A stretch of 64,000 bases of DNA from Blastocystis sp. Blastoise (Eukaryota > Sar > Bigyra > Opalinata > Blastocystidae). Below the pieces are notes generated by a model that saw only the letters and a list, made by a program, of their open reading frames with translations, was not told the DNA's origin and did not search any database. Made by a program: the position numbers and the translations under genes. Each line of letters begins with the position of its first letter. The first letter of the stretch is position 1. Of this stretch, positions 48,373 through 54,300 are shown piece after piece. The stretch is taken from NCBI GenBank assembly GCA_039096225.1, contig JBBPEB010000003.1:391001-455000 (forward strand), in the 5' to 3' direction.

Positions 48373-51300
48373 TTAATGATTCATTCGTGATGCTTTTACA
48401 CTGTTATCTAATGGAATTATCTCCTTTATATATATAATAATAATAATAAATAATATATAATATATAATATATAATATATAATATATACAGATTTTCGTTT
48501 TTCGATTTCATTTTTGAATATAGATAATAATAATTTCATATTATGAGGAAATGCATTTTTGGGTCCATTAAAATCAAGTGTATTATTATATAATAACATT
48601 AATTCATTATACATATCTTCACTTGTATAATTACCTTGATCGATATGACTACGAATAGTATTAAGATCAATAATATGTTTAATCTTCAATCTATAAGCAT
48701 CAGCCCAATCAGCTTTATCAAAAGGAATCACTTTGAAATCATTCGCTACAGATGTCTTCATCATCACATCTAGAACATCTTTTAGAAGGCTTGATAAACG
48801 AATACTTCCTGTGTCACGTCGACGCGTCTGAGGAGTATCCATATAATACTATATATATATATATATATATATATATATATATAATCATATTATTATTATT
48901 ATATATATATATACATCATCTGCATTACGTTTATTTATCTATATATATATATTATTATTATTATTATTATTATTATTATTATTATTATTATTATTATTAT
49001 TATATACTTTCTTTCCTCTTTCTTTTCCTTGATTAGAAGGATGACATTCAACATAAACTATTCATATATATGTTATTATTATAATTATTATTATTATTAT
49101 TATTATATACATGGATTCTCTTTTCCATTCTTCTCTTCAAGTTTCTTCTATATATTTATATATATAAATCATTATTATATTAATAATAATAATAATAATA
49201 ATAATATATATATATATATACCTTCAATTGCTCAATTAAAAAAGGACTTCTATTATAAGTAACAGTTACAGAAAAATTCTCACTCTTATCACAACTATAT
49301 TTTGTTTGACGATATAATAAGGGTCTATATATATTTATTATTATTATTATTATTATTATTATTATTATATATATATATATATATTTACCTTCCTTTTGGA
49401 CCTCGTGGTACATCTTGAACAGCTATATATTATTATTATTATTATTATTATTATTATTATTATTATTATTATTATTATTATTATTATTATTATTATTATT
49501 ATATACATCTTGAAGGAGGTCTTTCAAACTATATATTAATATATTTATATATCTATTAATATATCTATTAATATATTTATATATAGAATCTATTTTAGAA
49601 TTTGATATTGGCTATATATATATATTTATAATTATATTTAATAATAATAATAATAATAATAATTACTTTCATTTGAGATTCTGATACTATATAAATATAT
49701 TATTATTATTATTATTATTATTATTATTATTATTATATATATATACATTCAGGAATAAGAGATATAGTAGATCGTATACTCTATATATATATATATTAAT
49801 AATAATAATATTAATAATAATAATAATATTCAATACAGTTGTATCATCATCATCATCATCATCATTCATTTTATTACGATTTCCACGTTGATAATTATTA
49901 TTACGAACACCCATATTATCACCATAAAATAGTTTTGTGTGATCTACAACTTTCTATATTATATTATTATATTCATTATTATTATTATTATTATATACAA
50001 ACTTAGAATTTTCATTATTCTCATCATCATCATCATCAACTATCACTGTACTTCGAATTATATCCAATTCTTTACTAAATAAACTATTACACTATATATA
50101 TATATATATATATATTATTATTATTATTATTATTATTATATACTTGTTCATTAAATCTCTCATTCTTCTCTGCCTGTGTTTCACGAGAGGATCGAGCAAA
50201 TTTAGCCAATTCAGCATCTTCAGGATAATGCATACCCATCTCTCTATATTTATATATATTAGTTATATTTATTATTATTATTATTATATAAAGTAAATAT
50301 AATTAATTAAATAAAATAATTACCTTAATTTCTTTACTTTATCCCATCGTGTCATCTTCTTCAAATCTGTCTCTTTCACAGAATATTTACGTAATAATTT
50401 ATTCATTAAACTTACACTCAATGTTCTTAAATCATTTGCATTATCATCATCCTGTATATCCATATCTATACCTGTTCCTTCACTCGCATCTACATGACGA
50501 ACTTTAGATTTCTCTTTCTTCTCTTCTTTTAACTTTTTATCTTTTAATAAAGTATTCTTACGACTACGTAATTGCTATTTATATTATATATAAATATATT
50601 ATATATTATTATTATATTTTATTATTATTATATATTATCTTTATATACATGTTCTTTAAAATATATAAAATTTTCTCCATATTTTGATAATATATCAACA
50701 TAATCTTGTTTTTCACATAAAAGATCTAATCTATATGATCCCTATATATTATTATATAGTATTATATATTATATAGTATATTATTATATATATACTTCTA
50801 TAATGCCTTTACAATAATTATTTGTTAATTCCCAAGGAGTTCGTTCTACTCTCTCTATTATATATTTACTTACTTCACATTCATATCCCATATTCTCATA
50901 AGCTTTCTTACATAATTCATATTCATGTCTATTTTATATCATATATTATTTTTTATATTATTATATTATATTATATATCATATATTATTATATATTATAT
51001 ATTATACTCATAAGAAAGACCAGCTATACGAGATATCTCTTTATTTGCACTTCCTTTCTGAAGATAATTCATTCGATTCTTCAAATGTTTCTTTAATATT
51101 GTTAAACCCTCACTACTTCGAAGAATATCTATTATATTATATATTATGTTTATTATTATTATATATTATTATATACAACTATCAATATCTAATATTTCTC
51201 TTATTCCTGCTTTATCTAAAAGGAATTTACCTACAGTAGCAGAAATCATCGAACAACATACTTCAGGTGTAAGAGATTGAGGAGGAATAGGACATTTTGT

Positions 51301-54300
51301 ATCATTTAATAATAAACTATTATTATATATTATTATATTATATTATATATATATACACTCTTGGTAATGTTTTATCTTCTCTATATTAAATAATAATAAT
51401 AATAATAATAATAATAATAATAATAATAATAATAATAATAATAATAATAATAATAATAATAATAATAATAATAATAATAATAATAATAATAATAATAATA
51501 ATAATAATAATAATAATAATAATAATAATAATAATAATAATAATAATAATAATAATAATAATAATAATAATAATAATAATAATAATAATAATAATAATAA
51601 TAATAATAATAATAATAATAATAATAATAATAATAATAATAATAATAATAATAATAATAATAATAATAATAATAATAATAATAATAATAATAATAATAAT
51701 AATAATAATAATAATAATAATAATAATAATAATAATAATAATAATAATAATAATAATAATAATAATAATAATAATAATAATAATAATAATATACTTTGGT
51801 TCTTCTAATCGAATCTTTCCTCTACTATCATCAATAGCATCTATTAAATTATGTTCTGAAGGATTCATACTATCCAAGAAATAAGAAGGAAATAAATCAG
51901 CAAATTGATTTACTTGGAGAGAATGACCTGATGTATGTACTATTTTATATATATTATTATATATTATTATATTATTATTATTATTATATACCATTATAAA
52001 GAACAGATTGTACCATATATCGACGATATTCTTCTCTCCAATCTCTCCAAATCATCGAAGTCTCCTCTTTCTCACGCTCTTTTAAGGGCTTCATTACGGG
52101 ATATATTGGCTCTATCTTTCCAGCTAAATGAACAGCAGGACAATGACGCAAATAACAACGACCTTGATTTATACTATATATATATATTATTATTATTATT
52201 ATTATTATTATTAATTATTAATTATTATTATTACTCTTGAGTATTCCATATTAATAAATAATCACACTTATTCTGCTATATATATATATTATTATTATTA
52301 TTATTATTATTATTATATATATATACAGCATGTTTATACATAGGAGCATTATAAAGAGGAGTACATATTGATAATAAACTATTTCCTGGTTCTATTGTAC
52401 CCATAAATGGAGGTTTTTGATGTTTTGCTAATTGAAATACTGTTCCATCTTCATCTTCAGGTAATTGATCTATTTATATATATTATTATTATTATTATTA
52501 TTATTATTATTATTATTATTCTATACATTGTTCATTATTCTTTGGTTTATACCATGTTATTATTGATGCAGGCATAGCATCTTCCATTAATATAGGAGGT
52601 AACGGCTCATAATATTCTACCTATTATATATATTATATATTATATATATTATATATTATATATATACAACTGTAATATGATCTGTACTTGTTGATAATCC
52701 TTCTACTTTATGTATACTCTATTTATTATTATTTATATATTATATATATATATTATATATATACTTTAAGAAAATGTTCAATAGAATCAGAACTTCGATT
52801 AATTGTTGGAGAATATACCTATATATATATAATAATAATATTATTATATATATATATACTTTAAGATTAAAATGAATATTATCAATTCTTGGTTTATGAT
52901 ATGTAATAGTATTTCGAGGAATATCAACAGGAAATAACTTCAAATGACGAGCTAAAATCGTTTGAGTTGACATGGGTGGAGTAGCTCGAATTAAATTATT
53001 CTATATATATATATATTTATTATTATTATTATTATATATATATATATATATACATCTTTCTTTCTACTTTTATTAATTTGCTCTGTATTTGTTGTTACTT
53101 TATATTTATTATTTGCATATATAGAAGTAGTAGGAATAGAAGGTTGTTCAGAAGTAAAAATTAAATGAGGATCATTTAAATCTATTTATATAATTATTAT
53201 TATTATTATTATTATTAATAATAATAAATAGTATATATACCAAAATAATAAGGAGTAGGTTCATCAATACATAAAGGATGACAAGAATTATATATTTGAT
53301 CTTGATATTGAAGTGTAGGACTAAGATTCATCTCTTCTTCTACTATATTATCTTCTTTATTATTTATTATATTATTAGTATTATTATCATTCTCTATATC
53401 ACGTGGTGTATGAGGTGTCATCGACATCGTCATCGACATCGTCATCTTCTCATTTATAGGCAAAACTCCTCTTATCGATCGAGTAGGAGTATGTATATAA
53501 ATAGAAGAAGAAGAAGGCTTTGTAGTTGATACTGACGAAGCACGAGGAGATAATAAAGTATTAGTATTATTATTATTATTATTATTATTATTATTATTAT
53601 TATCTACTATATATATATTATATTTATATATTTATATAATATTTACTTGATTCTTTCTTTATATATCCCCAATGATAACACTATATATATTTATTAATAA
53701 TAATAATATATATATATATATATATATATATATATACTTTATCATTATCATTTGTTATAAAATCTCCTATATATTATTATTATACATATATATATATATA
53801 TAAATACGAATTGAATAATCTTTTTCTTCTTCAGAATCATTCTATATATTATTATTATTATATATTTATATATGTATATACATCAATAATAACATCATTC
53901 TCCCATTCATATTGATGTATCATATCCATAGTATTATCAATACACTATATATATTATTATTATTCTCATTATTATTATATATATATATATACATTATCAG
54001 AATTACTTATAATTGGATCCATCTCACCATCACTCTCTTCTATATATATAATAATAATAAATAATAAAACATACCTTCTTTCATCAAATCATCACGTTTT
54101 ACTAATAATACATTACTATATATTATTATTATTATTATATTATATAATATCTATTTCTTACTATTTATCTTTCAAAAATCGCTTTTCTTCAGAATGACTT
54201 ATATGACTCTCTAATATCGATATTGAAGATAAATCTATATATTTTATTTATTTATTATTTTTTTATATATATTCTATTTACCATTCTTCTCTTCTATTGT

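Follow-up and report, generated by a model that had tools for sequence, protein, structure and literature searches.

We identified two copies of a TAF1 gene, arranged as an inverted repeat, in a 64,000-nucleotide stretch of the genome of Blastocystis sp. Blastoise (Stramenopiles, Opalinata; contig JBBPEB010000003.1, positions 391,001 to 455,000; hereafter the window). Four introns of the right copy are missing from the left copy, where the flanking exons are joined exactly at all four sites, and the reading frame is maintained on both sides in both copies. The exact absence of four introns exceeds chance expectation. We favor a precise loss from the left copy, templated by spliced RNA or cDNA in short tracts, and put its chances at about even. 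The two arms are separated by a spacer of about 5.6 kb, which contains other genes. The arms, the genes, and the four dimorphic introns with their empty left junctions are as follows.

36497 to 42444, plus strand: left arm of the TAF1 inverted repeat, from the arm alignment; homology stops right outside either end
48076 to 54614, minus strand: right arm of the TAF1 inverted repeat, from the arm alignment
36667 to 42157, plus strand: TAF1 left copy, 34 exons, 33 introns, and 1219 amino acids, from the spliced model and Pfam
48373 to 54444, minus strand: TAF1 right copy, 37 intron positions; model of 1211 amino acids, with one 27-nucleotide exon skipped, its donor being gone
52819 to 52859, minus strand: dimorphic intron 1 (right intron 11), 41 bp, phase 0, with the 6-base boundary repeat GTATAT
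50742 to 50795, minus strand: dimorphic intron 2 (right intron 22), 54 bp, phase 0, with a 1-base ambiguity
50575 to 50648, minus strand: dimorphic intron 3 (right intron 23), 74 bp, phase 0, no boundary repeat
49954 to 49998, minus strand: dimorphic intron 4 (right intron 26), 45 bp, phase 0, no boundary repeat
38227 to 38228, plus strand: empty left junction for dimorphic intron 1, within left exon 11 (195 bp)
39903 to 39904, plus strand: empty left junction for dimorphic intron 2, within left exon 21 (477 bp)
39996 to 39997, plus strand: empty left junction for dimorphic intron 3, within left exon 21 (477 bp), as for intron 2
40572 to 40573, plus strand: empty left junction for dimorphic intron 4, within left exon 23 (210 bp)

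The initial annotation of this locus had proposed a clean presence and absence of the four introns, and all eight of its coordinates proved exact in the arm alignment and the junction scan. Each right-arm insert is GT...AG, and in the global arm alignment the left arm is continuous across each site. When spliced in silico, each of the four right-arm junctions (40 + 40 bases) is identical to the left arm at all 80 bases. The near-identity of the flanking exons, also part of that annotation, was borne out as well: the TAF1 coding sequences differ by three substitutions (L37743, L38020, and L40629) in 3660 bases, besides one ATA indel within an Asn run, and the four intron differences outnumber the coding substitutions. 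The boundary ambiguity at sites 1 to 4 is 6, 1, 0, and 0 bases, respectively; among the other 32 modelled right introns it is 0 bases in 22 and never more than 3. For the four intron lengths, the start positions that give exact removal number 9, 2, 4, and 1, among about 6000 possible deletions per length in the gene. That two of the four sites lack any boundary repeat is evidence there against an ordinary deletion or a target-duplicating transposon.

The right-copy tracts are predicted to be spliceosomal introns, judging from their GT-AG ends, a consensus like that of the other introns, and the stop codons that would be met if they were retained. Keeping any one of them in the right mRNA would introduce a stop at amino acid 409, 752, 786, or 942 of the 1211-residue model. 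TA-rich ends are usual in TAF1, the donor GTATAT occurring in 24 and the acceptor TATAG in 25 of the 36 modelled right introns. The phase of the four introns, 0 in every case, has a probability of 0.059 if they are drawn from the introns of the gene, and the length of their flanking exons gave p values of 0.053 for the shorter flank and 0.12 for the sum. Their RNA folding energies per base are -0.317, -0.122, -0.096, and 0.0, with a median of -0.071 for the other introns; as intron 4 forms no hairpin, the description "hairpin-prone" fails to cover all four.

The identity of the gene is based on the left spliced model, which matches NCBI WA158_008055 of the same organism at every letter. The protein has Pfam matches to a bromodomain and to DUF3591 (PF12157, E = 2e-29), which we take to be the central domain of TAF1. 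The protein cluster of WA158_008055 has one member, so the right copy is apparently not in that database as a similar protein. No publication on the Blastocystis sp. Blastoise genome was found among the open-licence papers listed. A 181-base probe (128 exon and 53 intron bases) gave two full-length matches, which are the two arms, among the 40 of 90 candidates that were scored, and its remaining listed matches were confined to the AT-rich intron portion. At 49586-49587 (left 40941-40944) the right copy is without four bases, including the donor GT after the 27-nucleotide exon, and the right model omits this exon in frame, with 9 fewer amino acids. The interiors of intron 10 (38048-38086 and 53001-53053) appear by eye to be mutual reverse complements between TA arms, as if inverted, and the right-copy intron at 51381-51794 is 414 bp long, mostly TTA repeats, with a left counterpart of 66 bp.

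Ten introns of the left copy lie upstream of site 1, ten between it and site 2, two between sites 3 and 4, and eleven downstream of site 4; sites 2 and 3 have none between them. The introns retained between the sites exclude one contiguous tract of fully spliced cDNA, and the initial annotation was thus right to hold that a single cDNA conversion does not suffice. Under the loss that we favor, spliced TAF1 RNA or its cDNA would have served as the template in gene conversion or break repair, and a fully spliced template would have been copied in short tracts, each bounded by neighboring retained introns. At least three tracts would be needed, one for right intron 11, one for introns 22 and 23, and one for intron 26. 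Ordinary gene conversion would have homogenized the arms, either earlier or in the same episode. The adjacent introns 22 and 23 are missing together; one adjacent pair among four of 37 introns is expected about 30% of the time by chance. The three left exons that carry the sites suit short exon-bounded tracts, and equally insertion into long exons.

A cDNA template is plausible in view of the reverse transcriptases of this genome. Twenty of the 21 RVT_1 profile matches were over the cut-off, in open frames of 764 to 2787 amino acids, with ten equal in score. Thirteen of the 20 frames have at least 2424 amino acids, and several pairs lie about 8.5 kb apart; the equal scores and the pairs suggest recently active retroelements. 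In a more speculative form of the loss, which we offer tentatively and think rather improbable, the AT-repeat introns themselves would have been the break sites, each repaired from the spliced transcript of the gene in one short exon-bounded tract, and the twin arm would preserve the intron-bearing state as a built-in control.

The local background was drawn from 264 kb of contig C33, on which the window lies (the window and 20 further stretches), with 2256 candidate introns scanned. The junction scan gave 55 matches, seven of which are clean and represent six introns, the four in TAF1 and two others; the remaining 48 were judged by eye to be self-overlaps, weak matches, or simple repeats and were discarded. 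The fifth dimorphic intron is in a neighboring gene with three local copies of mosaic identity, whose hand translation had no Pfam match. It is missing from the other two copies, at 56483/56484 and 18550/18551, and is in phase 2 by frame reading.

31820 to 34672, minus strand: outer inverted flank, left, with the left copy of the neighboring gene; 78-95% identical to 54675-57474, with gaps
54675 to 57474, plus strand: outer inverted flank, right, with the right copy of the neighboring gene; counterpart of 31820-34672
18273 to 19465, minus strand: third copy of the neighboring gene, no TAF1 beside it; 92-96% identical to the right copy, closer than the left copy is
32901 to 32947, minus strand: fifth dimorphic intron, 47 bp, in the left copy of the neighboring gene; boundary repeat 0

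The sixth is at C33:481886-481989 (L035:6886-6989), in phase 0 of an open frame. With two more clean cases within 264 kb of the same contig, the initial statement that such changes between paralogues are rarely caught must be softened.

Two other duplications on C33 allow a comparison of rates. The first, a second large palindrome (L034-L036 and L039-L042, BLAST pieces 93-99% identical), has one dimorphic intron among 39 predicted and 58 substitutions in 9898 exon-like columns over the approximately 13.7 kb compared, and its shared introns are identical in 4 of 38 cases. The second, a 16-kb direct segmental duplication (L029:8030-L031:4249 and L042:8466-L044:4685, BLAST pieces 99.8-100%), has no dimorphic intron among 18 predicted, 16 of which are identical, and shows 3 substitutions over 14100 columns. 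Both substitution counts exclude non-homologous ends. Of the gaps of at least 20 bases read in both alignments, 12 are in the palindrome range, where a single one is GT...AG; the direct duplication has no gap of that size. The TAF1 counts come from gene models and the others from an intron predictor that was exact on 26 of 33 left and 28 of 36 right TAF1 introns and that, when run on TAF1, caught two of the four dimorphic introns plus one false one; on this footing, the ratio of intron differences to substitutions is 4:3 in TAF1 and 1:61 in the two other duplications (Fisher p = 1.9e-4). At the rate of the second palindrome, 0.13 intron differences would be expected in TAF1 (P = 1.2e-5), and with that rate at its upper limit, 0.74 (P = 0.007). 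TAF1 therefore likely has an excess of intron change over substitution, though the excess is not secure.

Several observations weigh against the templated loss that we favor. The polarity, loss or gain, is unproven, and profile searches for outgroup TAF1 loci in viral and prokaryote contigs confirmed none. The four sites have no 3' bias (relative positions 0.31, 0.62, 0.64, and 0.77; p = 0.72), and the GC content of the exons beside them is below that beside retained introns (p = 0.014 for ±30 bases and 0.077 for ±50); in both respects they depart from the intron losses of Dictyostelium, which are described in the accessible part of PMC4683709 as 3'-shifted and with higher GC. The extra intron of the neighboring gene sits in the left copy. 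The boundary repeat at site 1 is the longest of the 36 modelled right introns, and plain deletion fits there. With both rates at their upper limits, 2.2 TAF1 intron differences are expected and the excess is not significant (P = 0.17). A gapped search was made for intron 3 only; it skipped simple repeats and scored 40 of its 52 candidates, and other hits in the genome reached 88% (66 bases) and 92% (52 bases). A gapped comparison puts intron 4 at 91% likeness to intron 19, which both TAF1 copies share. We take these gapped likenesses of introns 3 and 4 to be simple-sequence resemblance.

The alternative that survives best, which we still consider unlikely, is that the right copy acquired the four introns, either through reverse splicing of introns that already existed or as introner elements bringing both splice sites with them. 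The gapped likeness of intron 4 to intron 19 would fit such a gain, as would the AT-rich flanks of the sites and the richness in introns of Blastocystis genomes (PMC5608401, in its accessible text); the accessible part of an introner survey also lists one "blastocyst" species (PMC9860276). The sites are in long left exons (195, 477, 477, and 210 bp), as length-proportional insertion favors, though these are longer than uniform insertion predicts (P = 0.05). Against a gain, an ungapped search of the genome found introns 2, 3, and 4 each single at up to three mismatches and intron 1 single at up to two, which argues against recent copying-in; as a control, a shared TAF1 intron was recovered once in each arm. 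For the sixth dimorphic intron, its 43-base end had no second occurrence in the genome. The likeness of the four to other TAF1 introns is not above that of the retained introns (p = 0.49). Among 447 predicted introns in the 264 kb, those of at least 35 bp gave 79 pairs at least 90% alike with unrelated flanks, and the 15 most complex of these pairs all appear to be simple repeats. A recent introner was rejected on the absence of ungapped copies in the genome and of convincing likeness among the introns of the 264 kb.

Insertion would further have to account for phase 0 in all four cases, which has a probability of 1/81 under uniform phase, and for the missing target duplication at sites 3 and 4. 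The initial annotation had raised scattered intron gain from microsatellite-like sequence; it now appears less supported, given these two sites and the lack of an ungapped near-copy, and given that randomly inserted AT filler would need to supply both terminal G bases, which are exact. About two-thirds of the shared introns are unchanged between the arms (21 of the 31 compared are identical and 10 differ, two of the 33 having been set aside owing to the lost donor), so a recently copied intron should usually show a recognizable source, and loss is favored. The introns may also have been gained from sequence that has since been lost from the genome.

It is improbable that the left copy was replaced or founded by the reverse transcript of a single partly spliced TAF1 RNA, from which just the four introns had been removed. 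Such an event would explain all four differences at once without multiple tracts, and both the 4:3 ratio and the extent of the homology, from 170 bp before the ATG to 287 bp past the stop with an AATAAA near the 3' end, are in keeping with it. An RNA with 33 unspliced introns would be an unusual template, however, and the excess of intron change weakens when both rates are at their limits. Beyond TAF1, collinear inverted homology persists at 78-95% in the same order, so the duplication looks DNA-level, and neither poly(A) nor a target duplication was seen by eye at the arm ends; on the same two grounds we rejected a LINE-type semi-processed retrogene. Semi-processed retrogenes, such as rodent preproinsulin I, have some of their introns gone but not all, and are retroposed with poly(A) and a target duplication. 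The left TAF1 copy is like them in its partial lack of introns and unlike them in being part of an inverted duplication without either mark.

An artefact of assembly or polishing, in which cDNA-derived reads or mis-polishing stripped introns from the left copy only, likewise has a low probability. Near-identical inverted copies are difficult to polish, and RNA-derived reads would remove introns exactly. The two other clean cases are in different paralogues, one of them with two separate intron-free copies, which speaks against an artefact, although an artefact could recur. The arms also have many other small differences, and all 18 predicted introns are retained in the 16-kb direct duplication.

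The 5' edge of the arms (6 of 64 bases differing) and the outer flanks are more diverged than the interior, so gene conversion is probable, and the TAF1 arms are probably old with a homogenized interior. In that case the age read from exon identity would be that of the last conversion and not of the duplication. The initial annotation called the change recent on the strength of nearly identical exons; the high identity stands, but the age would not then follow from it. Heteroduplex loops might outlast conversion, and the intron differences could on that account predate the exon identity, having survived conversion as restored loops. We think this quite doubtful, given that identical shared introns make up 21 of 31 in TAF1 and 4 of 38 in the second palindrome, so that loops were not generally spared, and that the 3' edge is without clear excess (1 of 64). 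That all four introns went by ordinary deletion, through microhomology or end joining, is extremely improbable, and we rejected it, for the 6-base direct repeat GTATAT would yield the exact product at site 1 only, site 2 having one base and sites 3 and 4 no repeat, and four exact hits are not expected.

The precise loss that we favor resembles intron loss through reverse-transcribed mRNA in Dictyostelium, as presented in the accessible part of PMC4683709, in its exact removal, in not needing boundary repeats, and in the presence of reverse transcriptases in the genome. TAF1 also has one adjacent pair absent together, though chance alone would give such a pair about 30% of the time. TAF1 differs in keeping introns between the absent ones, and in being a comparison of paralogues in one genome and not of species. 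RNA-templated double-strand break repair yields whole-intron deletions in human cells and tumors, with exact removal of single or adjacent introns as in TAF1, and depends there on REV3L (Pol zeta) and not on LINE-1, according to the available portion of PMC12065846. Repair of this kind would be expected to lack a 3' bias.

Introners would also produce intron presence and absence between close copies. As characterized in the available text of PMC9860276, they form families of similar introns, unlike the four TAF1 introns without a near-copy; that survey removed low-complexity families, and AT-repeat introns would escape it. The recent intron gains of Daphnia (PMC4202315, accessible part) are alike in showing presence and absence at low divergence, but are alleles polarized by population data, whereas the TAF1 copies are unpolarized paralogues.

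Intron loss and gain are usually inferred across species once the traces have decayed. Twin copies within one genome, with neighboring kept introns as internal controls, offer a test case for distinguishing cDNA conversion, RNA-templated repair, and insertion. If the introns were indeed break sites repaired from the gene's own transcript, the locus would preserve natural evidence of RNA-templated repair over evolutionary time, a process whose role in evolutionary intron loss is left undetermined by its authors in the part of PMC12065846 available.

Other features were seen in the window and elsewhere on the contig. A stretch of about 103 bases at 34796-34900 has no Rfam or tRNA match; another 16 copies of it, 72-79% identical, are listed across contigs. 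Within one stretch of C33 there is a large tandem repeat with units of about 1-2 kb (L046:2471-8881). Positions 1-226 of the window contain a signal recognition particle RNA (Rfam RF00017, 79.6 bits), truncated by the window start.

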